Shown piece after piece: positions 3,995 to 33,200 of a stretch of DNA of 37,850 nucleotides. Position 1 is the stretch's first letter, and each line of letters opens with the position of its first letter. Made by a program: the position numbers and the translations under genes. The notes below the pieces were generated by a model. It had not been told where the DNA came from and ran no database searches. It worked only from the letters and a program-made list of their open reading frames with translations. This DNA comes from a virus: IMG/VR virus record IMGVR_UViG_3300032282_001178, positions 1-37,850 of that record. The stretch is one strand, 5' to 3'.

Positions 3995-4007
3995 CTAACA
4001 ATGTTAG
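3995..4007. promoter_or_regulatory. 13-bp palindromic operator-like motif, copy 1
   Basis: Exact CTAACAATGTTAG, arms inverted around one central base. It lies 31 bases upstream of the P1 -35 box, in the divergent regulatory region. Confidence 0.75.
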
Positions 4008-4038
4008 ATCAATTCTATATTTATTGTTCACGCAAATC

Positions 4039-4067
4039 TTGAGTTTGCCTCTTTTTTGTGGTATAAT
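4039..4067 (+). promoter_or_regulatory. Promoter P1 (sigma-70 type)
   Basis: TTGAGT at 4039-4044, 17-base spacer, TATAAT at 4062-4067, with TGG just before the -10 (extended -10). The end TTTGTGGTATAATATA is shared with P2 and P3. Transcription would run into the gene at 4142 through a leader of about 65 bases. Confidence 0.85.
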
Positions 4068-4076
4068 ATACTCAAG

Positions 4077-4118
4077 CAATCAAAATGATTGTGGCGGTTT
4101 CCAAGTCCGTTTACTTGG
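4077..4118 (+). other. Leader hairpins downstream of P1
   Basis: Two small stems lie between P1 and the first gene: CAATCA/TGATTG (4077-4082 with 4086-4091) and CCAAGT/ACTTGG (4101-4106 with 4113-4118), the second followed by TTTTATT. They could be a weak attenuator or a transcript-stabilising leader; the stems are only 6 bp each. Confidence 0.4.
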
Positions 4119-4141
4119 TTTTATTAGAAGGTTAGAAGATC

Positions 4142-4633
4142 ATGACTACAGTTACACAAAACACAGTTTCCCTCGAATCATTGCGTCAAGGTGTTGCCGA
4201 TGCCGTCAAGCGTGCCTACGGCGCTGAGCGTGACTATGCTGAGAAGCTTTGCGAGGTGTTGCCCGTTGAATGGTATTTAATAGAGCACAATGACAAGGGC
4301 GAAGACGCGAAGCAAGTTCACGCTGAGAAAAAAGCGTTGTTCAAAGCATTGAACGAGGCAGAACACACAAACCCGTCAACAGTATGGGCGCGGGTTCGCA
4401 AGTATGCACAAGAGCACATCGAAGGCAAGCCCGAGAAAACCGAGGGTTCAACCGATACGTCAGTAGGTGCAAGACACAATCGAAGCTTGAACCTCCGTCT
4501 TATCGAGGAACTGAGCACCTTGTTCAAAGCTTGCAAGAACGCGGAGAGCCTGAGTGATCGTGAGCAAGACGCGCAGACCTACATAACCTCCGCGTTGATT
4601 GCCCTCGGTGTTGACACCGGTGCGATAGAGTAA
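4142..4633 (+). CDS. Unknown early protein, 163 residues
   Basis: First gene after promoter P1, with ribosome site AGAAGG and a leader ending in the same GGTTAGA(A)GATC-type sequence found before the P2 gene. The protein is mostly helical and polar, with an acidic and lysine-rich middle (about 50-125) and no recognisable catalytic motif or membrane segment. It is followed by a GNRA-type hairpin and a strong terminator, so it is a single-gene transcript separate from the P2 operon. Being first in the early region under a strong promoter suggests an early regulatory or host-takeover role, but this is inference only. I do not recognise the family. Confidence 0.85.
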   Translation: MTTVTQNTVSLESLRQGVADAVKRAYGAERDYAEKLCEVLPVEWYLIEHNDKGEDAKQVHAEKKALFKALNEAEHTNPSTVWARVRKYAQEHIEGKPEKTEGSTDTSVGARHNRSLNLRLIEELSTLFKACKNAESLSDREQDAQTYITSALIALGVDTGAIE

Positions 4634-4640
4634 ACCACAG

Positions 4641-4658
4641 GTAAGGGGAAACCCTTAC
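4641..4658 (+). other. GNRA-loop hairpin after the first early gene
   Basis: GTAAGGG, loop GAAA, CCCTTAC: a perfect 7-bp stem with a GAAA tetraloop, 8 bases after the stop codon and 9 bases before the terminator stem. Probably protects the 3' end of the transcript. Confidence 0.5.
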
Positions 4659-4667
4659 CCCATCCTG

Positions 4668-4691
4668 AGCCCGCCTTGTGCGGGCTTTTTT
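4668..4691 (+). terminator. Rho-independent terminator
   Basis: Perfect 7-bp stem AGCCCGC/GCGGGCT with a 5-base loop (CTTGT), followed by six T. It ends the P1 transcript. Confidence 0.9.
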
Positions 4692-4705
4692 GCGTCTGCT
4701 CGCAC

Positions 4706-4718
4706 CTAACAATGTTAG
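4706..4718. promoter_or_regulatory. 13-bp palindromic operator-like motif, copy 2
   Basis: CTAACAATGTTAG, extended to a 17-bp palindrome ACCTAACAATGTTAGGT (4704-4720). It lies directly after the terminator and before the direct repeats. Confidence 0.75.
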
Positions 4719-4720
4719 GT

Positions 4721-4818
4721 CGATTTGAATACCAGTTCTCTGGTCGGTAGTAGCGGCAAGGTCGGCAACGTTCCAAAGCACCCCGATTTGAATACCAGTT
4801 CTCAGGGCGGTGGTAGCA
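4721..4818. repeat. Direct repeat pair, 20 bp identical plus imperfect tail
   Basis: CGATTTGAATACCAGTTCTC occurs at 4721-4740 and again at 4784-4803, 63 bases apart. Each copy continues into a similar tail (GGTCGGTAGTAGC versus GGGCGGTGGTAGC). Each copy has a palindrome copy next to it (4706 before the first, 4825 after the second). No gene overlaps. Possibly protein-binding sites of a replication or regulatory region. Confidence 0.7.
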
Positions 4819-4824
4819 AGCGAC

Positions 4825-4837
4825 CTAACAATGTTAT
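4825..4837. promoter_or_regulatory. 13-bp palindromic operator-like motif, copy 3
   Basis: CTAACAATGTTAT, one mismatch in the last base. Next to the second direct repeat and at the left end of the GTTAC-rich tract. Confidence 0.65.
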
Positions 4838-5287
4838 GTAACTTTATGCAATGTTACGTCTAATGTTACGAAAAAAAGGGCTTTGTTACGTTACGAAACG
4901 CTCGCAACCCGCATGAAACCTAGAAAGTTACAATGTTACGCTTTTTGAGCCTAATGGGTGTCGTGTTACAAAAGTTATGAAGCAACGAAGTGCCTCAAAA
5001 GTGCAAAACGTATTACGCAAATAATTTTGGAGGCCATATACCCATTTTTAAAAAACACATAACATTATAACATTACCCTAAAAAACACTACTTTTCAGAG
5101 GAGAACCCCGTGTTACGTTTCACGTTACGTTTTGCTCAATTTCCGTTACATTTCCCAAATAAAATAACATACCACACTTTACTTTCATAACACTGCTTAA
5201 AAAATAGGCAGTCTGCTCATTTCATAACTTTCGTGCTTCCTCGAACAAGTTCGCGGCTCACTTTCGTCTCACCCAAGACTAAAGAAC
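4838..5287. other. Gene-free A/T-rich tract with many GTTAC(G) elements
   Basis: About 450 bases with no supportable gene. The pentamer GTTAC (or GTAAC) recurs about ten times between 4838 and 5150, three times as AATGTTACG (around 4851, 4863 and 4933), which resembles the right half of the 13-bp palindrome. A/T-rich stretches with TAACATTATAACATTA lie around 5059-5078. The arrangement (iteron-like repeats, A/T-rich DNA, direct repeats nearby, no gene) would suit a replication origin or a large regulatory region, but nothing proves it. Confidence 0.45.
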
Positions 5288-5316
5288 TTGACTTTGACAT
5301 AACATTGTGGTATAAT
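5288..5316 (+). promoter_or_regulatory. Promoter P2 (sigma-70 type) with internal operator half-site
   Basis: TTGACT at 5288-5293, 17-base spacer, TATAAT at 5311-5316 with extended -10 TGG. The spacer carries ATAACATTGTGGT (5299-5311), whose left nine bases match the palindrome TAACATTGT, so a protein bound there would cover the promoter. It drives the gene cluster starting at 5406. Confidence 0.88.
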
Positions 5317-5323
5317 ATAAGTT

Positions 5324-5342
5324 AGATGGGATAAAACCATCT
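5324..5342 (+). other. Leader hairpin downstream of P2
   Basis: AGATGG (5324-5329) pairs with CCATCT (5337-5342); a second short GGGC/GCCC stem follows near 5345-5358. Placed as in the P3 leader, right at the expected 5' end of the transcript. Confidence 0.4.
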
Positions 5343-5370
5343 ACGGGCAATCCCGCCCATTAGAAGCACC

Positions 5371-5383
5371 CTAACAATGTTAG
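5371..5383. promoter_or_regulatory. 13-bp palindromic operator-like motif, copy 4 (P2 leader)
   Basis: CTAACAATGTTAG within CCTAACAATGTTAGG (5370-5384), 22 bases before the start codon at 5406. The segment from here to the start codon is nearly identical to the P3 leader (8264-8298). Confidence 0.8.
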
Positions 5384-5405
5384 GTTCAATTAGAGAGGTT
5401 AGATC

Positions 5406-5573
5406 ATGCAAGAAAACGACACCCCAATCACAGTCGAGCAAATCAAGCATTGGCTTGGTAGCGACCATCAAAACCCAAGCGACTATCTCCAACTGCTGTA
5501 TGAGTTGGTCAATGGCGAGTACGACCCCGCCCAAATGCGCTTAGACATAATCAACTCAGACCTAGGAGAGTAA
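5406..5573 (+). CDS. Unknown small protein, 55 residues
   Basis: First gene of the P2 unit; ATG at 5406 follows GAGAGGTTAGATC. The protein is acidic and polar, with one likely helix (IKHWLGSDHQNPSDYLQLLYELVNG). I do not recognise it. The next gene starts two bases after its stop, and its own last codons (CTAGGAGAG) supply the ribosome site for that gene, so the two are coupled. Confidence 0.75.
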   Translation: MQENDTPITVEQIKHWLGSDHQNPSDYLQLLYELVNGEYDPAQMRLDIINSDLGE

Positions 5574-5575
5574 CC

Positions 5576-5800
5576 ATGTCAGATTGGCACGAGTGCCGCA
5601 ACTGCGGTGACGATATACACAGCGAGCGGTGGTCACTAGGCTACCGAGTCTGCCTATTCTGCGGTGAAGAAGCCGCACGCATGGAACGCATGAGTTGGTG
5701 CGTAGTGCAGGAATACGGCAAGGGCAACTACCAACTTGTTACACCTGCGAGCGCACGGGTAACACTTAAGCAAACCAACCAAAAAGAACTGAGGGGCTGA
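5576..5800 (+). CDS. Small zinc-ribbon protein, 74 residues
   Basis: Two CxxC knuckles, CRNC (C7, C10) and CLFC (C26, C29), 15 residues apart, form a classic four-cysteine zinc ribbon. The remaining C-terminal part (about 40-74) is polar with basic residues. Such small zinc ribbons in phages may bind nucleic acid or protein; no specific role can be read. The ribosome site GGAG lies in the previous gene's end. It sits in the P2 operon between two other small unknown genes. Confidence 0.8.
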   Translation: MSDWHECRNCGDDIHSERWSLGYRVCLFCGEEAARMERMSWCVVQEYGKGNYQLVTPASARVTLKQTNQKELRG

Positions 5801-5802
5801 GC

Positions 5803-5979
5803 ATGACCGAAGAAGAATTCAATGCCAACTTTAATGACGACCTCACACGCATGAGGGAACAACTGCGCTATGCCCTAAACAATATCGACAGTATCCGTAA
5901 CCGCCATGAGGTGCGGGGCAGACTGGAAAATGTTTACTTCACGCTCGATGAACTGTGCGAACAAACCAAAGGGGGCTAA
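5803..5979 (+). CDS. Unknown small protein, 58 residues
   Basis: ATG at 5803 follows GAGGGGCTGAGC, a strong ribosome site lying at the end of the previous gene. The product begins MTEEEFNANF, is charged and likely all helix (RMREQLRYALNNIDSIRNRHEVRGRLENVYFTLDELCEQ). The stop codon TAA lies inside palindrome copy 5, which also holds the start of the next gene. Family not recognised. Confidence 0.7.
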   Translation: MTEEEFNANFNDDLTRMREQLRYALNNIDSIRNRHEVRGRLENVYFTLDELCEQTKGG

Positions 5980-5988
5980 CAATGTTAG
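5976..5988. promoter_or_regulatory. 13-bp palindromic operator-like motif, copy 5 (on a start codon)
   Basis: CTAACAATGTTAG. It contains the TAA stop of the upstream gene (5977-5979) and the ATG start of the downstream gene (5982-5984), with GGGGG just before as ribosome site. Confidence 0.8.
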
Positions 5989-6236
5989 ATAAAGAAAACA
6001 CAGGGATGATGTACTGGGGCTATTTGTTCTCCGACCACGAAATCTACCCAATCGGTTGGTATGACATGACCGACTGGACTGCGGGATGGGACAAGTTGTT
6101 TGCGGATGTAACGCAGATGGCTGAAGACTTAGGCGTTGAGCCTATCCATGCAATCCGAGGCGACTGCATCCAAGACTTGATCGAAGACCTAGTAATCCTA
6201 ATGAAGGACATGAAGGAGCCTAACAATGTTAACTAG
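5982..6236 (+). CDS. Unknown protein, 84 residues
   Basis: I place the start at the ATG inside the palindrome (5982), because GGGGG lies at the right distance; an in-frame GTG at 5955 has no ribosome site and would overlap the previous gene. The protein has an aromatic N-terminal half (GMMYWGYLFSDHEIYPIGWYDMTDWTAGWDKLF) and an acidic helical C-terminal half. It ends KEPNNVN because the next ribosome site and palindrome are translated as its last codons. The same tail KEPNNVS ends the protein at 6312-6827. Family not recognised. Confidence 0.75.
   Translation: MLDKENTGMMYWGYLFSDHEIYPIGWYDMTDWTAGWDKLFADVTQMAEDLGVEPIHAIRGDCIQDLIEDLVILMKDMKEPNNVN
6220..6232. promoter_or_regulatory. 13-bp palindromic operator-like motif, copy 6 (on a start codon)
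   Basis: CTAACAATGTTAA, last base differs. Preceded by AAGGAGC; the ATG at 6226-6228 is the start of the 29-residue membrane peptide. Confidence 0.75.
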
Positions 6237-6315
6237 ATGGGAAAAGCTCGAACGTATTGTTATTTTGTGTGCTTGCATAGTGCTTGCACTTGACCTACTT
6301 TATTGGAGACCATGA
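6226..6315 (+). CDS. Small single-span membrane protein, 29 residues
   Basis: ATG at 6226 lies inside the palindrome and has an excellent ribosome site (AAGGAG, 8 bases upstream). After a short charged start (MLTRWEKLER) there is one hydrophobic stretch (IVILCACIVLALDLLYW) that can cross a membrane, then RP and the stop. The stop TGA overlaps the next start as ATGA. Tiny membrane peptides in early phage regions often modify host membrane proteins or act in lysis control; here only the membrane segment is evident. The strong ribosome site and tight packing argue that it is real. Confidence 0.65.
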   Translation: MLTRWEKLERIVILCACIVLALDLLYWRP

Positions 6316-6827
6316 TGAGACACGAACATTTACCGGCACTAAAAGGCTACACATCCCAAGCCCAATACGATGCGCTCAAGTCCATCGAAGAAACCAAGTC
6401 AATCAAGGCTTTGGTGTTCTCGGGTTCATCAAGTCGCACCCTCGGTGCGTTAGTGCGTAGCGCATGGATAAATACTTTTCCCTACGTTGAGGATGGTATC
6501 AAGTACGAGGGCTGGTGCGTAACCGATGCGGGTAAGCACGCAATGGCTATGTTTGCCGAGCGACTACGCTTGCAGAAGATTGAGGATGACAAGAAAGCGC
6601 AGAAACTTACCTTGTATCGTGAGTGCGTGGTACACGCATATACGCTAGAGCGTGACACCCGAGCAAGGCGTGAAGAGATTGAGATTGAGTACAAAAAACT
6701 AACGGATGAAATAGAAGAAGCCAAGCGCAAAGTTTCTGCGGCTGGCATGTGGTTGAATAGTCACGACAAAACCTCTGTGATCTACTCAGTACGAGAGCAA
6801 CTGAAGGAGCCTAACAATGTTAGCTAA
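6312..6827 (+). CDS. Unknown protein with coiled coil, 171 residues
   Basis: Start at ATG 6312, overlapping the previous stop by four bases (ATGA), with GGAG just upstream. Residues about 15-80 include a compact region with SIKALVFSGSSSRTLGALVRSAWI followed by KYEGWCVTDAGKHAMAMF, which reads like a small winged-helix-type fold (helix, strand-rich part, helix), but I am not sure. Residues about 85-145 form a charged coiled coil (RLQKIEDDKKAQKLTLYR to KKLTDEIEEAKRKV). It ends KEPNNVS, encoded by the ribosome site plus palindrome copy 7 of the next gene. Function unknown. Confidence 0.8.
   Translation: MMRHEHLPALKGYTSQAQYDALKSIEETKSIKALVFSGSSSRTLGALVRSAWINTFPYVEDGIKYEGWCVTDAGKHAMAMFAERLRLQKIEDDKKAQKLTLYRECVVHAYTLERDTRARREEIEIEYKKLTDEIEEAKRKVSAAGMWLNSHDKTSVIYSVREQLKEPNNVS
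6811..6823. promoter_or_regulatory. 13-bp palindromic operator-like motif, copy 7 (on a start codon)
   Basis: CTAACAATGTTAG, preceded by GAAGGAGC exactly as in copy 6. The ATG at 6817-6819 starts the next gene, 11 bases before the upstream gene's stop ends. Confidence 0.8.
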
Positions 6828-6990
6828 GTTCCTAATGACAGGATGGAGTAACCGCTTTGGCTATTGGGTGACCGAGGTTGCCGAGGCTAAAGATATAAGC
6901 ACAGCAAGGGAACGCTTCTGCCTGAAGTACCCCACGCTGAAGAATGTGAAAGCCCTGCGCCTGCGTGCGCAATCAGAACTGATGGAGTAA
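6817..6990 (+). CDS. Unknown small protein, 57 residues
   Basis: Starts at the ATG inside palindrome copy 7 with AAGGAG as ribosome site and overlaps the previous gene by 11 bases. The product (MLAKFLMTGWSNRFGYWVTEVAEAKDIS...) is basic and probably a small alpha/beta fold; the last 30 residues form a helix-rich segment. No motif is recognised. The next gene starts three bases after its stop, with GGAG inside its last codons. Confidence 0.7.
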   Translation: MLAKFLMTGWSNRFGYWVTEVAEAKDISTARERFCLKYPTLKNVKALRLRAQSELME

Positions 6991-6993
6991 GCC

Positions 6994-13988: not shown

Positions 13989-14212
13989 AAATTCTATCAG
14001 CGTTCCCATGGATAACTGATGATGGGGAAAGAATTCAAGGCGAAAAGGGAATGACCTTGCGTGACTACTTTGCGGCTAAAGCTATGCAGTCTTACACAAG
14101 TGACAAAGAGTTTGTGGACGCTTGCGCATTTATGGAAAAAGATGTCAAGGAAGAGATAGCCCGAGTTGCTTATGCACAAGCAGACGCTATGTTGAAAGCG
14201 AGGCAAGCATGA
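13985..14212 (+). CDS. Unknown small phage protein, 75 residues
   Basis: ATG at 13985 overlaps the previous stop (ATGA) and follows AAAGGAG. The central phrase GMTLRDYFAAKAMQ and the C-terminal AYAQADAMLKAR are typical of a short protein family widespread in phages and prophages of proteobacteria, as I recall; function is not known to me. It begins with a beta-hairpin-like part (FPWITDDGERIQGEKG). Confidence 0.78.
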   Translation: MKILSAFPWITDDGERIQGEKGMTLRDYFAAKAMQSYTSDKEFVDACAFMEKDVKEEIARVAYAQADAMLKARQA

Positions 14213-14418
14213 ACAAAGAAGATGACGATGATATTCAAGACTACGTAGCCTCGGGTTGGCGTAAGCGTCAGGTGGCTATGGATAAAGAATACAACTACGA
14301 GCGTGATATACGTAACGATACGCTAGAAGAAGTAGCCAAAGAGTTTGAAAAGATGAAAGTTTTTGAAGCTGACACCATGGCAAGCATTGCCGTAAATATA
14401 AGGAATATGAAGAGATGA
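14209..14418 (+). CDS. Unknown small acidic protein, 69 residues
   Basis: ATG at 14209 (ATGA overlap with the previous gene). Earlier in-frame starts lie fully inside the upstream gene and have no ribosome site. The product has an acidic head (NKEDDDDIQDYVASG) and a helical charged body (RDIRNDTLEEVAKEFEKMKV). Not recognised. Confidence 0.65.
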   Translation: MNKEDDDDIQDYVASGWRKRQVAMDKEYNYERDIRNDTLEEVAKEFEKMKVFEADTMASIAVNIRNMKR

Positions 14419-14690
14419 GCACAAAAGCACTAAACGCTTGGGAAGAGTTAGCGCAAGTAAATCGCCCTAGCATTTTCTTAAAGGATGTTTATTTCCGAGC
14501 CAAGGGTGGCGGGACTATTACAAACGAAGAAGGCTTAGGCTACAAACAATTCGGCACGTTTACTCGTGCTAAAGAAAGACAACCAAACAAACACGAAGGA
14601 GTTTTAGAACATGCCGAGACCAAAGCCCCCCGCCCCCCTAAAGGTACGATACGTCAAATTGTCGGACGAAGAGTGGCTAAAGTTCAATGA
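14415..14690 (+). CDS. Unknown protein, 91 residues, overlapping the next gene by 80 bases
   Basis: ATG at 14415 (ATGA overlap with the previous stop). The N-terminal 55 residues (MSTKALNAWEELAQVNRPSIFLKDVYFRAKGG...) read as natural protein. The last 26 residues are encoded in the region that also starts the 86-residue gene in another frame and are basic and proline-rich (KAPRPPKGTIRQIVGRRVAKVQ). Either the overlap is genuine or a frameshift has changed the original end. Function unknown. Confidence 0.6.
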   Translation: MSTKALNAWEELAQVNRPSIFLKDVYFRAKGGGTITNEEGLGYKQFGTFTRAKERQPNKHEGVLEHAETKAPRPPKGTIRQIVGRRVAKVQ

Positions 14691-14871
14691 ATTAGGTGGA
14701 GCCGACTGGTTACGCAAGTATGTCAATAAAAAAGCAAAGTTCCCAAAAGAATACTACAAAGCCCTTGTTGAAAAACAAAGTGCTGAGTCAAGAAGAGCTA
14801 AGGGCGTGGTGGCCGTTCACACGGCTAGACCCCAAGCGATTCCCCAAACCAACGAAGCCACAACCAACTGA
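14611..14871 (+). CDS. Unknown phage protein, 86 residues
   Basis: ATG at 14611 with a strong ribosome site (GAAGGAG, 9 bases upstream). The phrase VRYVKLSDEEWLKFNELGGADWLRKYVNKKAK belongs to a small phage protein type I recognise by pattern: a beta-strand, a helix, then the GGADWLRKY segment. The fold recalls small DNA-binding proteins with a strand followed by two helices, but this is a guess. The C-terminus is low-complexity (Ala/Thr/Pro/Asn). Confidence 0.72.
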   Translation: MPRPKPPAPLKVRYVKLSDEEWLKFNELGGADWLRKYVNKKAKFPKEYYKALVEKQSAESRRAKGVVAVHTARPQAIPQTNEATTN

Positions 14872-14889
14872 TTATGAGGAGGCAACATT

Positions 14890-15120
14890 TTGATTGCAAA
14901 TAAAGAATGCTATGAGAGAGGATGCGCTTGCTACGACAGCCGAGTCGATGGTGAGGGTATTGAAGTAGTAGCAAAAGGTGAGCCTGTGGCGTGGATTAGC
15001 GCCAAAGAACTGCTAGTAATGCGTGGAAATGCGTATGCGGGTGCAAAAAGCTGGCGTGTAAACCTTGGTCTTGAACCGGAAGAAGGTGACGTTGGTTTGT
15101 ACATTAAAGGAGAAAAATAG
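14890..15120 (+). CDS. Unknown protein, 76 residues, TTG start
   Basis: The best start is TTG at 14890, with a strong ribosome site (GAGGAGG) 7 bases upstream; no suitable ATG exists. The N-terminus holds CYERGCACYDSR, a small cysteine cluster. The middle phrase EPVAWISAKELLVMRG is seen in many phage hypothetical proteins of the PVAWI type. The stop TAG shares its last base with the GTG start of the next gene. Confidence 0.7.
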   Translation: MIANKECYERGCACYDSRVDGEGIEVVAKGEPVAWISAKELLVMRGNAYAGAKSWRVNLGLEPEEGDVGLYIKGEK

Positions 15121-15326
15121 TGACCACAGGAATTGAATATTTAAAGTTAGAGAAGAAACGCAAGGGGCGGGGGCTTGGTAAGAAACCCGCCTTAGCTTGC
15201 ACGAGCTTGCGACTACCGAAGGAGGTGATGGATTATTTCGACACCAACCATCGAATGTCAAAGCAAGCCAAAATGAGAGAAGTTCTTACCGAGTACGTTA
15301 ATAAACAAACAGGAGTTAAACCATGA
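15120..15326 (+). CDS. Ribbon-helix-helix-like putative DNA-binding protein, 68 residues, GTG start
   Basis: GTG at 15120 shares its first base with the previous stop and follows AAAGGAG. After a basic tail (EKKRKGRGLGKK) comes a beta-strand TSLRLPKEV (28-36), a helix (EVMDYFDTNH) and a second helix (KQAKMREVLTEYVNK). This strand-helix-helix order with the SLRLP strand resembles ribbon-helix-helix proteins such as BrnA-type antitoxins. RHH dimers bind short palindromes, so this is a candidate for the protein that reads the 13-bp palindrome; that link is inference. No toxin partner is visible next to it. Confidence 0.6.
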   Translation: MTTGIEYLKLEKKRKGRGLGKKPALACTSLRLPKEVMDYFDTNHRMSKQAKMREVLTEYVNKQTGVKP

Positions 15327-15940
15327 TTAAAAAAGTAACCAAAGCCGCACAAGTGCGTAGCTACGTAGCCGCAAACCCCAAAGCCAAACCCGCAGAGGTA
15401 GCCAAGGAGATAGGTGTTGGGCTTCAGTACGTATACACAGTGCTGTGGAACGCAAAGAAGAAAGCCGGAGTTAAAAAGAAGGCTACGCTTACGCTACCTA
15501 AAGCTAAGTGGGGAACAACCCATATAGCTTCATCCAACGTATCCGTTAAAGATAAGTTGAAAGAGTACGAAGCCAAGAAAACGAAAGAGCAAGTAGACAA
15601 GTATTGGCAAGCCGTAGGTGAAGTCCAAAAGGCAGGGCTATCAGCCGCCCGTGTTGCCGAACTTACTGCGCTAGCCGGTAAGCCCAAGGCACGTATGCAG
15701 AGTAGCGAGCCCATGCAGATTGATATGTTCGAGCCCGAGTTTGATGACCTAGTGAATCACCCTGCCCATTACAAGGTAGGTGGAATCGAGACCATCGACT
15801 TCATCGAAGCGAAGAAGTTAGGATACAACCTTGGCAACGTGGTGAAGTACCTGACTCGTGCCGACCACAAAGGCAACAGGCTTGAAGACTTGCGCAAAGC
15901 CCAGTGGTATCTGACACGCGAGATTGGCGCACTGAAGTAA
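15323..15940 (+). CDS. DUF3310-domain protein with N-terminal helix-turn-helix
   Basis: 205 residues, ATGA overlap with the previous gene, ribosome site AGGAG. The N-terminal part (about 9-50, AAQVRSYVAANPKAKPAEVAKEIGVGLQYVYTVLWNAKKKAG) reads as a helix-turn-helix. The C-terminal part (about 138-205) has VNHPAHYKVGGIETIDFIEAK, GNVVKYLTRADHKGN and LEDLRKAQWYL, the hallmark of DUF3310, a small domain very common in phages and of unknown molecular function. Between them lies a lysine-rich linker. It is the last gene before palindrome copy 17 and a terminator. Confidence 0.85.
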   Translation: MIKKVTKAAQVRSYVAANPKAKPAEVAKEIGVGLQYVYTVLWNAKKKAGVKKKATLTLPKAKWGTTHIASSNVSVKDKLKEYEAKKTKEQVDKYWQAVGEVQKAGLSAARVAELTALAGKPKARMQSSEPMQIDMFEPEFDDLVNHPAHYKVGGIETIDFIEAKKLGYNLGNVVKYLTRADHKGNRLEDLRKAQWYLTREIGALK

Positions 15941-15946
15941 AACGAC

Positions 15947-15959
15947 CTAACAATGTTAG
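15947..15959. promoter_or_regulatory. 13-bp palindromic operator-like motif, copy 17
   Basis: CTAACAATGTTAG within CCTAACAATGTTAGG (15946-15960), between the DUF3310 stop and the terminator stem. It is the last full copy in the window. Confidence 0.75.
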
Positions 15960-16358: not shown

Positions 16359-18172
16359 AAATAATTACAGTTGACTTTGAGACGTTCTACTCACGCGAGA
16401 TTGGGTTTGCCAAGCAGACTACCGAAGAGTACATCCGTGACCCTGAGTTCCATGTCGTAGGGGTATCAGTGCAGGTGGATGATGGTGAGCCAGAATGGTT
16501 CAGCGGAACGATGGTTCAGACTGCCGAGTACCTTGGTCAGTTCGATTGGAAGAATTCACTGGCGCTAGCACATAACGCTATCTTTGATGGGGCAATCTTG
16601 AGTTGGCACTTTGATATTAAACCAAAGGGTTGGTTAGATACACTGTCTATGGGTCGCGCACTACATGGTACTAACGTAGGCGGCAGTCTCAAGGTGCTAG
16701 CGCAGTACTACGGCATTGGAGAGAAGGGTACAGAGGTTGAGAACGCCCTTGGCCTGAGACGGATCGACTTTCCCCCCGAGCAGTTAGCAAGGTATGGGGA
16801 ATACTGCATGAACGATGTAGCCCTGACATGGCAGTTGTTTGGCAATATGAGCGCAGGGTTTCCACAGGTAGAGCTGCGGTTAATTGACTTAACCATACGC
16901 ATGTTCACAGAGCCGTCTTTGGCGCTGGACTTGCAAGTACTCGGTGACCACTTGGAGTCGGTGAAAGATTTGAAGGCTATGGCGCTAGGGGCTTACGAAA
17001 AAGAAGACATGATGAGCAACCAAAAGTTTGCCATTATGTTGCAAGCCGCAGGCGCTACACCGCCAATGAAGATCAGCCCCACTACCGGCAGAGAGACGTT
17101 TGCTTTCTCTAAGACCGATGAAGAATTTAAGGCATTGCTAGAACACGATAGCCCCGCAGTGCAAGCGTTGGTAGCCGCACGCCTTGGCACGAAGTCGACC
17201 ATCGAGGAGACGCGAACCGAAAGGTTCATTGGGATTGCCAAGCGAGGACTTATGCCAGTTCCCTTGCGATACTATGCGGCTCACACAGGGCGGTGGGGTG
17301 GTGACGACAAACTCAACCTACAAAACATCCCGCGCAACTCCCCCCTGAAACACGCTATTTTTGCGCCAACAGGATACATGATGATCGACTCAGACTCATC
17401 ACAAATTGAAGCCCGTACGCTAGCATGGCTTGCGGAACAGAACGACTTAGTGGAGGCATTTGATCGTGGCGAGGATGTATACAAAATCATGGCATCTGCT
17501 ATTTATGGCAAGGACGCCTCGGAGATTACAAAGGATGAGAGATTCGTTGGTAAGACCACTATCCTTGGCTGTGGGTACGGAATGGGTGCGGCAAAGTTCC
17601 AAGCGCAACTCAAGAACTTTAACGTGGAGATTACGTTGGAAGAAGCAAAACGCATTATCGACACTTACCGCACTACGTATCCGAAAATTACTGCGCTCTG
17701 GAAGAAAGCCGGTACTGCGTTAGAGGCAATTTTGCGTGGCAATTCAATGGCGCTAGGCCGCGATGGTGTCTTAAAAATAGAAGGCAACAACGGTGTTTTA
17801 CTTCCCAATGGTTTGTACCTGCGCTATCCGAACCTGCGCATACTTCAGAGTGAGGAAGGTAAGGCCGAGATGGTCTACGACACCAAGCGGGGAAAAGCAA
17901 CCATACCCAACCGAATCTATGGCGGTAAGGTGATTGAGAACGTATGCCAAGCCTTAGCTCGTATTGTGATCGGTGAGCAGATGCTATTGATAGCCAAGAA
18001 GTACAAGGTTGTGATGACTGTGCATGATGCGATTGCTTGTATCGCGCCGACACCCGAGGCTAAGACTGCGCAAGAATACGTAGAGATGTGTATGCGCGTG
18101 CGCCCCAAATGGGCACTTGACCTACCGCTTAACTGCGAGGCCGGATGCGGCAAGAGCTATGGCCTTTGCTAA
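16355..18172 (+). CDS. Family A DNA polymerase with 3'-5' exonuclease
   Basis: 605 residues, short as in many phage polymerases (no 5' nuclease domain). Exonuclease motifs: Exo I VDFETF (D7, E9), Exo II HNAIFD (H73-D78), Exo III YCMND (Y150-D154). Polymerase part: HTGRW (310-314) and LQNIPR, motif A IDSDSSQIEAR (344-354), motif B region RFVGKTTILGCGYG (396-409), motif C TVHDA (555-559). All catalytic residues appear present, so it should be an active, proofreading replicative polymerase. It starts inside the previous gene's stop (ATGA) and overlaps the next gene by 14 bases. Confidence 0.95.
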   Translation: MKIITVDFETFYSREIGFAKQTTEEYIRDPEFHVVGVSVQVDDGEPEWFSGTMVQTAEYLGQFDWKNSLALAHNAIFDGAILSWHFDIKPKGWLDTLSMGRALHGTNVGGSLKVLAQYYGIGEKGTEVENALGLRRIDFPPEQLARYGEYCMNDVALTWQLFGNMSAGFPQVELRLIDLTIRMFTEPSLALDLQVLGDHLESVKDLKAMALGAYEKEDMMSNQKFAIMLQAAGATPPMKISPTTGRETFAFSKTDEEFKALLEHDSPAVQALVAARLGTKSTIEETRTERFIGIAKRGLMPVPLRYYAAHTGRWGGDDKLNLQNIPRNSPLKHAIFAPTGYMMIDSDSSQIEARTLAWLAEQNDLVEAFDRGEDVYKIMASAIYGKDASEITKDERFVGKTTILGCGYGMGAAKFQAQLKNFNVEITLEEAKRIIDTYRTTYPKITALWKKAGTALEAILRGNSMALGRDGVLKIEGNNGVLLPNGLYLRYPNLRILQSEEGKAEMVYDTKRGKATIPNRIYGGKVIENVCQALARIVIGEQMLLIAKKYKVVMTVHDAIACIAPTPEAKTAQEYVEMCMRVRPKWALDLPLNCEAGCGKSYGLC

Positions 18173-18911
18173 ATCTGCTAGACCGTACGGCAAAATAAAT
18201 AAAGGGACAAGCATCCCCTATGGCACACTTGCGGATGCAAGCCAAGAGCTTATCAAAGTTTACTACTACCATGGGTACAAAGAGGACTCAATGTTGCCTG
18301 AGTTCCCATGCTTACCATACGAAGAAGAGCCAACTATCGACCCTGATGAAGAGCTATGCAAGGCGCAGTTAGCCGAGCATGTTAAAGAAATGTTAGACAC
18401 TCTTACGCCAAGGGAATCCAAAGTATTACGTATGCGGTTTGGAATTGAATTGGATGCTGACTTCACCTTAGAAGAAGTTGGAAAGGCATTGTATGTAACA
18501 AAGGAACGTATTAGGCAGATTGAAGCCAAAGCATTACGCAAAATGAAGAGGCCGGAGCGTAGCGAGATACTAAGACAAATTTGGATGCCCGAAGATTACT
18601 ATCAAACAACAGAAGAAAAGCGGCTTGAAATTTTATCCATACAAAAGAAATGGCGTGAGGCTAAAGAGCAACGCGAAAAAGAAAAAGATAACGAATTACA
18701 GGCGCAGGCTTTTATTCGTGGAGATTCATTAACGGCTAAAAAACGCAAATTGTGGTGGGAACTTAGACCCGCGCTTCAAGATGCGCCATGGGTAAAGAAC
18801 CTAAAGATAGAGAAGCCCGATATGTACCAAGAGCTAAAGGAATTGGTAGCCGACATTTGGGATATGGACGCAAAAGAAATTTGGAAGAAGTACACAAAGG
18901 AAGATATATGA
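18159..18911 (+). CDS. Sigma-70 region 4 protein with C-terminal coiled coil
   Basis: 250 residues; I choose ATG 18159, overlapping the polymerase end, although the ribosome site is weak. Residues about 72-138 match sigma region 4 of RpoD-type factors very closely: LDTLTPRESKVLRMRFGIE, FTLEEVGKALYVTKERIRQIEAKALRKMKRPERS. Region 4 binds the -35 box and the RNA polymerase beta flap. Regions 2 and 3 are absent: the N-terminal 70 residues are unrelated and the C-terminus (145-250) is a charged coiled coil (RLEILSIQKKWREAKEQREKEKD). So it cannot melt a -10 box alone; it may act as a competing or recruiting factor at -35 elements. The close likeness to housekeeping sigma suggests capture from a host. 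Confidence 0.85.
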   Translation: MAFAKSARPYGKINKGTSIPYGTLADASQELIKVYYYHGYKEDSMLPEFPCLPYEEEPTIDPDEELCKAQLAEHVKEMLDTLTPRESKVLRMRFGIELDADFTLEEVGKALYVTKERIRQIEAKALRKMKRPERSEILRQIWMPEDYYQTTEEKRLEILSIQKKWREAKEQREKEKDNELQAQAFIRGDSLTAKKRKLWWELRPALQDAPWVKNLKIEKPDMYQELKELVADIWDMDAKEIWKKYTKEDI

Positions 18912-27197: not shown

Positions 27198-27225
27198 CCC
27201 CCGGCTAATCCCCGGGGGTTTTTTT
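27198..27225 (+). terminator. Strong Rho-independent terminator between convergent units
   Basis: Seven perfect G-C pairs CCCCCGG/CCGGGGG around a 7-base loop, then seven T. It stops rightward early transcription against the leftward late unit. On the minus strand the stem is followed by TAAAAGG, not a T-run, so it serves the plus strand. Confidence 0.9.
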
Positions 27226-30200
27226 CATTTCGCCGCTTCTTTTTCAAGCTTCTCGCGGGAGGACTCAAGTAACTGCTCCAAGTACGGGTAGAACTTCTTG
27301 TCTACATCAAACCCGCGATCAGATCTGGCACGTTTAGCTATACGCGCTTGAACCAATTTGCTTAAGTCACCGCCATCAATCCTAGCCTGCGGGTTACGCG
27401 CACCAAACGCAATAAGCTTTTCTATTGCATCGTCAAATGCTTCGTCATCACCCCGTGTGGCTTCTAAGTCAACACGATTAACAAGCTTACCTTTTTCAAT
27501 TACCACTTTTGCCTTGAGTGCATTGGCTTTGAAGTTAGCTTCTTGCGCGGAGGCTAAACCTGTAGTCCGTGCGCCACCTGCTTGAGCAAGTAATTGCGCC
27601 TTGGTAAATTCCTCTGGCTCTCTAATGACCGCGCCAGTACTTGTTGTAGCACCTTCTTCGCTATACCGAACCGCAGTCAACGGCTGGCGCAAGGCGGCGG
27701 GGAGAAGCCTCTCCAAACCTTGCATGGTTTTGCCTTCTTGCAGTAAACGAATAGCAGAAGGTATTTGATTTAATGTCAGGCTAGCAAACGGCCCCATCAA
27801 TGACAGCGCATATTCTTGCACTGTATCTTCAAGAGTGCGTTGCTCTTTTAAATCTGGGAACCACATGTTGTTCATCGACAAACTGTTGGACATGTTGTAG
27901 CCCGTAATGGTGTCAATCAAACCAGAGTCAATGATTTCGCTAATCTTCTGCCCACCAATCTGGGCTTCACCAAAGAACTCAGGAATAAACACACTGCGGA
28001 ACCAGAACTCAATGTCGCGCTCTTCTAATGGATCTTCGTCATCGTCATCGCGCATTGCATTGATAATGCCTTGTATAACACCCATAGCCGCGCTGATACC
28101 GGGAACGCCAACGTAACCAGCTAGCAGGCCAGACATAAACAAAGTGCCAAACAACTGAGTTGCCGCTTCTTTCTTAGCCGCCGCATCCATACCAGACATA
28201 GCACGGTATCCATTACGCACTAAGTATGTGGTTACGAAAGCAGGGAAAGTTTTAAATTGCAGCAATGTACGACCAACGGGGCCGCGCATGATACGTGGAC
28301 GGTTTTGCTCAGAGAAGTTGCCAAGGGCATCGTAAGTATCCTTAACCGCTTGGTCGACCGCATCATCAAAAGACATACCTTCTTTGCGGCTCAAACGGAA
28401 CGAGGTCATGAACATAACTTCGCGGTTTAAGCGCTCGACGTGGTGGAACAAACCACCCATCATATTAGTTGCAGACTTCCATGCGCCTGAGTATTTAGCC
28501 GACGGAGTATTGCGGCGATCCATCAAGTCATAGGCCATCGTGATCTCACTGACACCACGATCCATCATTGCTTCAACAGCCCGTTGCTCTTCCTCGTTCA
28601 TCTTAACGCGGCGAGAGTTTGCCAGAGTCGGCAATGTAAGCTTACCGTCTTTGTCCATAACGCCGACGTCGTTAAAGATCAGCATCATTTTGCCCATCTC
28701 AGCAACTACAGCAGTGGGGCTATGACGAGACATAAGGACAGGTGCGCCAAATATGGGCAGTGAGGAGAACTGAACAACAGCAGTCTTAACCGAAGTCATG
28801 AAGTACAGGAACGCTGTTTTGTTTGCAACGTTAGCTGCACCTCGCGCCACAGAATCTACAGCAGGCGGGTACACATCCATTTGAACGCGCTCACCTAACT
28901 CATTGACTAGCATCTCTAGTTTGTCTTTATCAGGGTTACCCTTGAGACTTTCTTTGGCAGCGTCAACTTCACGAAGCATTACTGGGCCGTACTTCAAACG
29001 CGCAAGCTGATTAGCCATGTTGGTAGAAGACGTAATAAAGTTGCGCAGCGCGTCACCTGAGAAACCGGTAGTACCCTTGCGGTGGATAAACTGACGACGG
29101 AAACTCTGCTCCGGCATTGTGGTTAAGTACAACTGATAGATCTGATCCTTAAGCGCCTCGGCATCGACTTCATTCATGCCGTCACCGATCAACTCAAAGA
29201 TTTGTTTAAGCAGAGGCGCAGTGTCATTGGTCGTGCTCTTATCGCGCAAACCTTTCAAGTCGTTGCCGGTTTCAATATCCTCATCAGCCTTCATCTCAGA
29301 CAGACTGCGGGTATCACCTTCTTTTTGCAGATCACGAACTCGCTGGCGCATAAACATTTCGCGGTCTACTACGCTCTCAAACATGTAGAACTCTTTCTTC
29401 TTACCAGAGCCCACACGCAACCAGTAATCACCATAACGCATCAATGGGAAGTACGGAGCCAGACCTTTAGCCGTCTCGTACATCTTCTTAATCTCGGCCA
29501 TCAACTTACCCTTGGGTGTATCAGGGTCAGCGGCATCACCCGGAATCTTCATTGCGTCTATGCGGCTATTCAGTAACAAGCGGTACAAGTCAAAGTTAGA
29601 CTTGTAGTAGTCACGTACGTCGGTGTAGATTTCCTTAGCCCTATCGCTCAGGCCATCCCACATTTTGTTAAGCGTAGCGTCTTTCTTGCTTGTAGCAGGA
29701 TCAATGCTCTTGTCTGTGGCGTAGTGCATCACAGCAGACAACTCAGCTAGCTCGTTCTTCTTGCCTTTGACAAGCTTGCCATACAACCCGGGTTGGACAT
29801 CAAGCCATTTATTTACTACTTCTGAAGCACCTCCAAGCATCTTCATGCGCATAGCGCTCATGTCTTGCATCGCACGCCATGTTTTATCCATGTGCGTAAT
29901 ACCGAGGTTAGTGCCCCACTCAGCCAAGATGTTGGTTTGGATGGCAGGCATTAGCGCTTTTAGTTTTGCTACGTTAAGCGCACTCCAAATAGACTGGAGA
30001 GTGTCCAAGAAGATCTGTGGGTCGCGTAGCTTAACCATTGTGTCAATACCGTCGACTACCCCTTGCGCTTCCTTGCTGCGCAGGATTTTCTTCTCGGCAG
30101 CGGTAATCTTTTTAGCATTGGTTTTAGCTTTAGCCGCAGATACTTTCTCACCACGGCCTTCACGTACTGCGTTGGCTTTATCAGCCTTGGCAATCATCTT

Positions 30201-33200
30201 CATTGTAGGTGTCAGCTTAGCCGACAGAATCTCATCAGTAACAAGAATCAAATCAGACAGAGCGTTAACTGTGTCCAGACCCATGCCAAGCAGTTCACGG
30301 ATTGCGTCTACAAAGCGGTTAAACAGACCTGTGTCTTCCTCAAAGCCGTAAGCCCCCATCAGGAACTTTTGGAAGTAGGGGTCGGTCATGCCGTAGGAAA
30401 CAAACTCGTGCGGATTGCTGAACACACCAGACACGGTCTTCAAATAATAAATATCTGTGGGTAACTCGCCCAAGTTAGACAGTCGGTTGTATTCGTCCTT
30501 AGCGTTGTTCATTACCGCAAGAAGCTTGTTGTACGCACGAGTCAGCTTAGCGTCACCTGAGAACCCACGTTGAACCGCAAGAAGAGCCATCTCAAGCTTT
30601 TGTTGCGTTGCAGCATGAAGCAACTCGTGGAGCACTGTGGTGTTATTGATACCTTGGAAGTCACCGGCGCTAGAACCGCGCACGTAGATAATTTTTTCAC
30701 CGGTAGCTGTGTTCTCAAAATACACACCACGGGCACGGGAGTTGTCGTTACCCCAAGCTTCTTGATGGCGAGACAATTGCTCTGGCAGTGGGTCAGTTTC
30801 CTCAACTACAACAAACTTAACGCCGTTGACCAGCCCACGAAGGCGCTTGGCCAAGAACTTTTGAAAGCCAGTTCCCGTCTTAATGACTTGGTTGATGGCT
30901 TGCGCGGCGTTCTTAGCTTTCTTAAACCCTTCATCTGCGGTTTCAACTTCTTCATTGCTCGCAGAGCTTTTGTTTACGCGCTCTTGCGCTTTGTATTTAC
31001 GCCCAGCCAGCACGTCATCGTGATCCTTTTGGGAGATTTTTGATCGGTCAGCAAGTGCGGCTTTAACCCGCTTACCCAGAGCAGTGCCACGGTGCTTAGT
31101 TTCCAAGTCCATCATTGCGTTGATGGTGTCTCGTTTAAGCGCACGCTTCTCGTCTTGGGCAACAGTTAAATCTAGGTCGTCGGCAAACTTAGTCTCGTCA
31201 ACAGGGGCGGCGGCTTCATCTAGCTTAGCTTGTAACTTAGGCAGGGTACGCTCGCCCTTCATGTACTCAGCACGGCCTTCGGTACGGGCTTTCTCTTTCT
31301 CCGCACGCTTCTCTTCAGTGATGTCAGCCTTTGGCCGACCACGTTGCTTGCCGGTTACTGCTCCGGCTGCTGGTGCTTTTTGTCCTTCTTGCGCTGTTTC
31401 GACGGTTTTAGGGGTCTTAGTGCCAAGTTCGGCTCCTTTAGTTTGGATAGAAGTAATTGCATTGCCAACGTGTGTACTAGCTGTACCATCGTCGTTATAA
31501 AGTTTTTCTACTGGGTGTAGACCAACTTCAGGCGCAGTTTTAGCTGGATAAGTACCTACTATTTTATTAGTTTCTTTGTTAAACACACCAACTACGGGAT
31601 TAGCATTTGCTTCTGGTATATCAGCTACAGTGCTAATTGGTACAAACGAATCTTTGTATATATACCCAAGGCGTACGGAATTTTTACCCATACCGCCTTG
31701 CATATCGCTAAGAATTTCAGTGTTGTCGCCGGGGTTTACATACAACGCCGTGTGAGGCGGGTAAGTTGTACCTTTACCTGCGCCTTCAGATTTTTTAGTT
31801 CTTGAAGTTTTACCACTTCCATCAACTGTGTATTCACTACCTTTAGCAGTTGTAAAACTTACTGCAACGGGCTCAGATCTTTTTCCTTCAACAGGCTCTG
31901 TAACATCCGTTCTAGGAGAAACCATTCCATCTCGTTCAGCTTCTCCAACTCCTGTGGTGGTGGAAATGTCGTCGGCTGATTGTGCAGGTAGCGCAGGGCT
32001 CTCTCCACCTGCTTCACTGATAGGTTCTGTAACATCTTTTGCTCCCTCTTCAATAGGCGCATTTGCTTCCTCAATCTCGTTACGTGCTAGTGTAGCGGCG
32101 TCTTCGGGCATGTAGCCCCGCTTCTTGTATTTTGCTACAAGTGCTTCAAGTTCTGGGGTGGGCGCAGGTTGTACTTCTGGAGTTACTTCAGTAGGAGCAG
32201 CTTCCGAAGCTACCGTAGCGGGCGCAGGTTGTACCTCTGCCGCAGGCTTCATGCGTTTGGCTAAGGCATCTTTAAGTGCTTGGCGCTTGTCAACAGGCGG
32301 CGCGGGTTGTTCTGCGTCTAGCGTTGGCTCAATCTTTTCCGTAGGTGGTTTTTCTTTACGGCGACCAGCCAAAGCTGTAGCACCAACGCCCATGGTAGCG
32401 CCCGTGACAAGACCCATACCAGCGGCTTCAGCAACACCATTCATAAGCGGTTTGTCTGTGGCGTAGTTCATCCACATTTGCTCTTGCGCAGACTGTGGCA
32501 ACTCTTCAAACACACCTTCAGAAATACCCGATGCCGTAGCTCTTTTGGCAAAATCTGCGACAGACTTTGAACCACTAGGAGTTTTAGCACCGCCGACCAG
32601 CATCGTATCAATGTCGTCAAGACCAAGCTTTTTAGCCAGCTTGCCGCCAGCCACACCAAATGCAGCTGTACCAACGCCAGAACCAACAGCAGACAAAGCC
32701 TGCTTACCAGTCAATAGGCCGTCTTCGGTTTCCTGACGTATTTGCTCAGCAGCGCTACCAGCACCAAGTAAGCCTTCACCCGCAGCGGCGGCTAAATATG
32801 GGGAAACTTTTGGCGCGGCCTTTAAAACCCCTCTAGCAACCCCTGCGCCGCCAAGCATTGGTGCTATTGATTCGCCAACTGTTGTAGCAATAGTGCTGGG
32901 GTATTGAAGGGCTTTGCCAATGGTTGGTAAGAAACCTTTTGTTTCTTTTACTTGGCGATTTGCGTATTGTTGTGCCTCAGACAAATACGTATCAAGTATT
33001 TCTTTGGCTTCGTTAGGTTTGTAACCCGCTTGTTCAAGAAGTTTACCAACACGGCCAAGCGTGGGAATGTCAGCCAAACCAACAAAAGCTTCAGGTAAAC
33101 CAATAGCACTCTTAAGAAAAGTAATACCGGCATCGAGGGCTGTACCACCAATAGTTCTGTCGTAACCCTTTGCTTCTCTTGCCGCAACTTGAGCGCGGTA

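Follow-up and report, generated by a model that had tools for sequence, protein, structure and literature searches.

A record in the IMG/VR virus collection (IMGVR_UViG_3300032282_001178) carries many copies of a 13-bp palindrome, CTAACA(A/T)TGTTAG, along its early region, and these copies raise the question of which protein reads them and to what effect. We refer to the whole 37.85-kb stretch of this record that was analyzed (37,850 nucleotides) as the window. Comparison with related contigs points to the product of the first early gene, a predicted protein of 163 amino acids (aa) that we call the reader, as the likely binder of the sites; the preliminary description of this DNA had left the binder unnamed, and co-variation between protein and site now supplies a candidate. 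We put at about two in three the probability that the palindromes are double-stranded DNA operators of the reader and that the reader, as a dimeric repressor, shuts off or damps the early region by looping, by roadblock, or by both.

A palindrome array in the early region

The preliminary description had counted 17 full sites in the window, and every one was found in place. Thirteen are the exact 13-mer CTAACAWTGTTAG, and the other four differ only at outer bases, with one change each at 4825, 6220, and 9801 and two changes at 13599. The 11-bp core TAACAWTGTTA occurs 17 times, always between positions 3996 and 15958, compared with an expectation of 0.03 and a largest count of 1 in dinucleotide shuffles, which bears out the earlier view that such a core is far rarer by chance. 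Eight of the sites lie entirely within coding sequences, where 1000 within-gene synonymous-codon shuffles gave an expectation of 0.17 and a maximum of 2. From these excesses over both kinds of shuffle we conclude that the array is real and is no by-product of composition or codon use. On the plus strand, the center base is A in 14 of the sites and T in 3. Outside the array, the sole related copy in the window is the C-centered CTAACACTGTTAT at 22164 and, as had been described, there is no copy with an A/T center.

Dozens of related IMG/VR contigs also carry the array, in each case in the early region, and it is thus conserved between related phages. We gathered these relatives by searches with two window proteins and one reader from another branch of its family. 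The contigs are metagenomic and some are recently related, with site counts and trees only partly independent, and the status of a site as inside or outside a gene comes from simple gene calls based on the longest open reading frame (ORF). Records with the half-site spacing of the window, which we call the 3-bp code, have up to 21 copies per 21 kb. In a 63.3-kb relative (G001), all 17 copies fall inside 12 kb; three other relatives (G017, G037, and G016) are similar, and G012 has one copy outside the early-region stretch. The array had been called phage-wide, which is wrong, because near-complete relatives of 60 to 64 kb hold nearly all of their sites in one early-region stretch. Unlike iterons, which are regular tandem direct repeats at an origin, these symmetric sites are irregularly spaced over 12 kb, and their earlier description as dispersed protein-binding sites is supported.

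Half-sites at two main spacings

Profiling the relatives for presence or absence of the 3-bp motif, CTAAC-N3-GTTAG, misled us at first. The records that seemed to be without it have the same half-site one base wider apart and carry a 4-bp motif, CTAAC-N4-GTTAG. Pooled over the loci of the relatives, there are 365 unique sites with the 3-bp spacing and 365 with the 4-bp spacing, and every other CTAAC/GTTAG spacing from 0 to 30 bp accounts for at most 14 sites (10 for the 5-bp spacing, from three loci). Two records (G031 and G034) have the 3-bp spacing with a free center, CTAAC-NNN-GTTAG, and three (L027, L028, and L041) use a third half-site code, CTGAC-N4-GTCAG, in 8 to 10 copies each.

Another record, L070, has six TAAC-N5-GTTA sites (five of them CTAAC-N5-GTTAG) alongside six TAAC-N4-GTTA sites and may represent a further spacing class. 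Rhizobium phage RHph_TM27A (MN988461; L150-L151), a distant relative with a similar gene order, carries a palindrome of its own, TTACC-N6-GGTAA, in 26 copies versus 0.04 expected; these are spread over much of its genome, with no obvious strong promoters nearby. No comparable palindrome was found in KPP25, also a distant relative, and the reader profile matches nothing in KPP25 or TM27A.

The reader follows the site code

The reader gene (4142 to 4633, plus strand) is the first early gene and is monocistronic, with a terminator-like hairpin (4667 to 4687, plus strand) directly 3' of it. In an unbiased comparison of all ORFs from 19 records, homologues of the reader, the predicted site-binding protein, were the cluster that best separated the 3-bp records from the others. 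The gene is present in the long records that take in the upstream end of the array. Its products fall into branch A, with the 3-bp code, and branch B, mostly with the 4-bp code, which share about 20% identity, and an iterated profile search from either seed joined the branches as one family of 106 ORFs (69 unique). The readers of the CTGAC-N4 records, known for two of the three, sit together at the base of branch B. The readers of L185, L189, and L191-L195 mark a second origin of the 3-bp code, within branch B.

With site codes assigned from sites outside genes, the reader tree showed 3 changes among the three codes over 72 contigs, for which the minimum is 2. Over the 52 contigs in which all five compared proteins are present, there were 3 changes on the reader tree, 5 on each of the MoxR, DUF2201, and p295 trees, and 6 on the p282 tree, while shuffled labels gave about 17.7. 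Trees of PolA, p388, and the VRR-NUC, DUF3310, and RHH proteins also fit the code worse than the reader tree did on the same contigs. Because the numbers of changes are small, two natural experiments, described below, weigh more than the trees.

Searches for known relatives of the reader found little. The family gave only scattered weak Pfam and PHROGs matches, and none of 63 reader proteins matched a ParB-family Pfam entry; a PDB sequence search with the family gave no credible match, and a tblastn search of INPHARED with the window reader and a 4-bp-code reader gave no match. A search of one genome per GTDB species, which was of limited sensitivity, gave one weak match (L197, without a palindrome array). 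AlphaFold models of two readers (predicted local distance difference test scores of 78 and 80) are mostly helical, with a C-terminal helical hairpin. The best VIA-align Z scores, 5.1 to 5.2 over about 48 residues of the helical hairpin, are uninformative, and a weak similarity to the N-terminal domain of Cre (Z scores of 2.7 and 2.4), along with a match of one member to PF13495 (E value of 0.038), is a lead only. On the strength of such models, a lack of structural neighbors does not make the reader fold new.

Two natural experiments on code switching

One of the natural experiments is a pair of phages, L059 with an A-branch reader and 16 sites of the 3-bp type and L063 with a B-branch reader and 22 sites of the 4-bp type. 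The two share about 86% DNA identity across much of the early region and 93% identity in the DUF2201 and RHH proteins; their readers share 28% identity over just 43 aa. Homologous intergenic sites of the two phages read CTAAC-AATGTTAG versus CTAACAAATGTTAG, a 1-bp central indel. This indel recurs at several independent places along the array, and comparison with L168 agrees. The reader is the sole gene of more than 150 aa in this stretch that is without a close counterpart in the other phage; two accessory genes of L059, of 148 aa and 115 aa, are also unmatched in L063.

The other natural experiment is L031, in which the DUF2201 protein groups with the 3-bp clade of the window (99% support), yet the reader is of the B type, and both spacings are present. 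Four records near it (L029, L032, L035, and L039) have both spacings too, and their readers lie beyond the stored DNA. In these five records, 24 of the 4-bp sites are intergenic and 1 is intragenic, compared with 3 intergenic and 24 intragenic 3-bp sites (Fisher p = 1.6e-10). The trend is alike in other mixed genomes (pooled p = 2e-20), and the intragenic share is lower in fully 4-bp genomes (42/185) than in 3-bp genomes (89/189; p = 9e-7). We attribute the retention of intragenic 3-bp sites to the reading frame, because a 1-bp insertion would frameshift the gene, while intergenic sites are free to convert. By their placement, the intragenic 3-bp sites in mixed genomes look like fossils of an earlier code. 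We lean slightly toward the view that replacement of the reader gene drives a concerted rewriting of intergenic sites by 1-bp indels (N3 to N4 or the reverse, and CTGAC-N4 in one lineage) and leaves intragenic fossils locked by the reading frame, that the readers are a new DNA-binding family, and that the driving force is probably pressure to escape silencing by related phages.

Placement of sites around promoters and genes

The promoters considered here are consensus predictions. Among the relatives, 92 of 117 nonredundant strong promoter-like sequences have a site within 160 bp, compared with 38 under the null. A site lies at +40 to +65 from the -10 element of 54 of the 117 promoters (null mean of 4.3, maximum of 10) and at -85 to -55 from that of 34 (null of 3.6, maximum of 10), and the core promoter, from -40 to +30, holds a site in 1 of the 117 (null of 9.1). 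Where a promoter has sites on both sides, these are mostly 103 to 140 bp apart. This geometry does not occlude the promoter and fits either a loop that encloses it or a roadblock just after escape. Because the promoters are near consensus, repression is likelier than activation.

Four such promoters were predicted on the plus strand of the window, each with an extended -10 element. P1, the promoter of the reader gene (4039 to 4067; TTGAGT-17-TATAAT), has a like placement in many relatives, and site 1 (3995 to 4007; CTAACAATGTTAG) lies upstream of it, with 66 bp between its center and the end of the -10 element. P2 (5288 to 5316; TTGACT-17-TATAAT) and P3 (8182 to 8210; TTGACA-17-TATAAT, a 12/12 match) are each followed by a site in the 5' untranslated region centered 61 bp after the -10 element, namely, site 4 (5371 to 5383; CTAACAATGTTAG) and site 10 (8265 to 8277), respectively. 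P4 (16005 to 16032; TTGACA-16-TATATT) precedes the replication genes, and the intergenic site 17 (15947 to 15959), which stands before a terminator, is upstream of it, with 79 bp between its center and the end of the -10 element.

The remaining sites lie between, across, and within genes. Site 2 (4706 to 4718; CTAACAATGTTAG), site 3 (4825 to 4837; CTAACAATGTTAT), and site 15 (13012 to 13024, shortly before the gene at 13035) are intergenic. Gene junctions hold site 5 (5976 to 5988), which contains both a stop TAA and a start ATG, site 6 (6220 to 6232; CTAACAATGTTAA), and site 7 (6811 to 6823), which covers the start codon at 6817; site 12 (9801 to 9813; ATAACAATGTTAG) likewise covers the start codon of the DUF2201 gene at 9807. 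Site 8 (7493 to 7505) and site 9 (7894 to 7906; CTAACATTGTTAG) are within the 388-aa gene at 6994 to 8160, site 11 (8981 to 8993; CTAACATTGTTAG) is within the AAA/MoxR-like gene at 8299 to 9366, site 13 (10765 to 10777; CTAACATTGTTAG) is within the DUF2201 gene (9807 to 10991), site 14 (12002 to 12014) is within the gene at 11258 to 12106, and site 16 (13599 to 13611; ATAACAATGTTAT) is close to the 3' end of the gene at 13365 to 13634. Within the long noncoding gap that comes after the reader gene, positions 4720 to 5200 hold a different repeat, GATTTGAATACCAGTTCTC, with two copies between sites 2 and 3; it is followed by a stretch rich in GTTACG/TGTTAC words that runs to about 5200.

Proposed mechanism and alternatives

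In the mechanism that we propose, the reader would be made early, would bind as a dimer with one subunit on each CTAAC half-site, and would fill all of the approximately 13 to 22 sites of the early region. Sites that bracket a promoter, roughly 75 bp before and roughly 55 bp after the -10 element, would loop it, stop polymerase soon after departure, or do both, and the sites within and between genes would be additional roadblocks, or stoperators. The outcome would be that the entire early region is shut off or damped and that the reader is autoregulated. A site flanks the promoter of the reader gene, which has a terminator of its own.

Several points weigh against this proposal. The majority of sites are not beside a detected promoter, and looping alone is therefore insufficient. 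On the reader tree, the branch B group of L185, L189, and L191-L195 uses the 3-bp code, which on the tree's evidence requires a change of specificity within the reader family. Co-inheritance of neighbors inflates any correlation, and backbone genes also follow the code, less well than the reader does. The link between reader and sites could be indirect, through an unseen partner. No DNA-binding fold was recognized in the reader, and fold searches of PDB and BFVD gave no match at an E value of <0.001. The evidence is comparative, and it is from this that we infer direct binding, dimerization, a repressive sign, and a purpose, whether early-to-late shutoff or exclusion of kin.

The reader might instead be a prophage repressor, with the sites as operators or stoperators that silence a resident genome and exclude kin. 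The logic of the array, a monocistronic regulator with autoregulatory sites, and the near-consensus early promoters would suit such a role, as would the repeated change of code, which heteroimmunity predicts. However, Phage_integrase (PF00589), Resolvase (PF00239), and the ParA domain AAA_31 (PF13614) were found in 0 of 16 relatives of 47 to 66 kb, with positive controls in well-known genomes. Because none of these was found and GTDB genomes hold almost no member of the reader family, within the limited sensitivity of that search, a temperate lifestyle is not supported, and we consider lysogeny immunity unlikely. The best fit is that the array serves to shut off the early region during a lytic cycle or to exclude related phages, and the repeated changes of code would be in keeping with selection for escape from silencing by kin. 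The preliminary description had suggested the RHH, HTH, and winged-helix proteins of the phage for a DNA-binding assay on the site. RHH proteins usually bind palindromes as dimers, and an RHH gene (15120 to 15326) is present in 18 of 19 records; however, the RHH protein is nearly the same in L059 and L063 despite their differing codes, and its tree has 6 code changes versus 2 for the reader on the same contigs. The DUF3310 protein (15323 to 15940), which has an HTH part, does little better, with 5 changes versus 3, and a host factor would leave code switching that follows a phage gene unexplained. A binder of any of these kinds is very improbable.

It is also quite doubtful that the reader has a nucleoid-like or partition role, bridging the dispersed sites to organize the genome with little direct effect on transcription. 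Sites do lie within genes and far from promoters, and a similar spread is seen in Corndog phages, where its function is unknown (PMC4351075), but confinement to the early region, fixed placement at promoters, and avoidance of the core promoter speak against this role, as does the lack of ParA in the 16 records. Finally, the palindrome could be an mRNA hairpin with a CUAAC/GUUAG stem, read at start codons by a translational regulator. Such a hairpin would shift its loop size from 3 to 4, and 19 to 28% of sites span a start codon with a Shine-Dalgarno-like sequence. Against it, the outer positions of the 3-bp sites vary independently (4 A..T pairs observed, 3.2 expected), and among sites away from start codons, the center on the sense strand is about equally A (158) and T (178). 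In addition, site 3995 is upstream of a predicted promoter, and others are deep within genes. This reading is extremely improbable, and the test for outer-base co-variation gave it no support. Among the 4-bp sites, A..T outer pairs are mildly overrepresented (29 versus 13.7), which may stem from preferences that differ between genomes. The patterns in the 3-bp sites are those expected of a symmetric DNA site and favor DNA over RNA.

Relation to known systems

A paper search for the motif string gave 0 matches. Cluster A mycobacteriophages (L5 with gp71, Bxb1, and TipsytheTRex) have at least a dozen short sites per genome, read by one phage regulator (PMC6550527, PMC9283540). Their stoperators are asymmetric 13-mers, read by a monomer, oriented with transcription, and spread genome-wide, in phages that have an integrase or parABS and an HTH repressor (PMC6550527, PMC9283540). 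As in cluster A, many sites of the present array are in small intergenic gaps, and the motif differs between related phages along with the regulator. Unlike cluster A, the sites here are perfect dyads, stay within the early region except for single outliers, differ in code by spacing, and bracket promoters, and no lysogeny genes were found. Cluster A phages use an HTH repressor; for the reader, Pfam, PHROG, PDB, and fold searches recognized no homology (no direct comparison with gp71 was made). The earlier likening of the array to the operators or stoperators of mycobacteriophages is thus apt for the distribution of the sites and fails for the system itself, given the symmetric site, the early-region confinement, and the finding of no integrase or ParA in the 16 long relatives. 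By analogy, the array is most likely stoperator-like in logic and outside the mycobacteriophage system.

Corndog and other cluster O phages carry 17-bp repeats, TGTTCGG-NNN-CCGAACA, over the whole genome; their binder and function are unknown, a role in transcription initiation was judged unlikely by the authors, and stable lysogens were not recovered (PMC4351075). Both arrays consist of dispersed dyad sites with an A/T-rich center, many intergenic and some in genes, in phages without an integrase. They differ in that the motif here is CTAAC-N3/4-GTTAG, the sites occupy the early region only and are placed in relation to promoters, and a reader is nominated. The T1/Stevie 22-bp repeats, of which a lytic phage has multiple intergenic copies, were likened to stoperators by their authors (PMC4319613); those repeats are asymmetric and oriented, with a motif unrelated to the one described here. 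Neither the cluster A stoperators nor the Corndog palindromes are the same system as this array.

Outside phages, GalR of the gal operon loops a promoter by way of two operators, one on each side of the promoter and neither overlapping it. GalR is a LacI-family repressor at one operon, in contrast to an unrecognized protein family and an array of sites here. KorB of plasmid RK2 reads dispersed 13-bp palindromes as a single protein and belongs to the ParB family, unlike the reader, for which no ParB domain was matched among 63 proteins; no AAA_31 was found in 16 records.

Gene setting and kinship of the window

In the window, a leftward terminase gene is followed by the rightward early region, which encodes an AAA/MoxR-like ATPase and a DUF2201 metallopeptidase/VWA protein. 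Past the early region are genes for a VRR-NUC-like nuclease, PolA, a sigma-70 region 4 protein, and a RecB-like exonuclease; an SNF2 helicase and a DUF927 protein are also encoded, followed by leftward unannotated genes. The sigma-70 region 4 protein (18117 to 18911; PF04545, E value of 1e-17; PHROG RNA polymerase sigma factor) lies in the replication region and might act as a middle/late transcription switch. On the minus strand, one ORF (27225 to 33428; 2067 aa) is conserved in most relatives.

The closest named phages are distant. The PolA protein of the window is 37% identical to that of Rhizobium phages of the RHph_TM27A kind and 34% identical to that of the Pseudomonas phages KPP25/phiR18, and a nucleotide similarity search of phage records with the window gave 0 matches. 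The long IMG/VR relatives are about 60 to 66 kb; therefore, the window is probably a little over half a genome.

Significance

Dispersed palindromes of lytic phages, such as those of Corndog, have hitherto been without a known binder or function, and here one specific protein is linked to the sites. The comparison lays open a change of code in a network of 13 to 22 sites, in which intergenic copies shift by one base and intragenic copies are locked by the reading frame. The branch B readers with the 3-bp code (L185, L189, and L191-L195) are useful for mapping the residues that set the spacing. Comparison of codes between near-identical phages is a route that we suggest to the readers of other orphan phage repeats. 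For this family of phages, the array offers a protein and a DNA site whose pairing can be tested directly, perhaps a new DNA-binding fold, and a view of regulatory turnover as it happens in nature.

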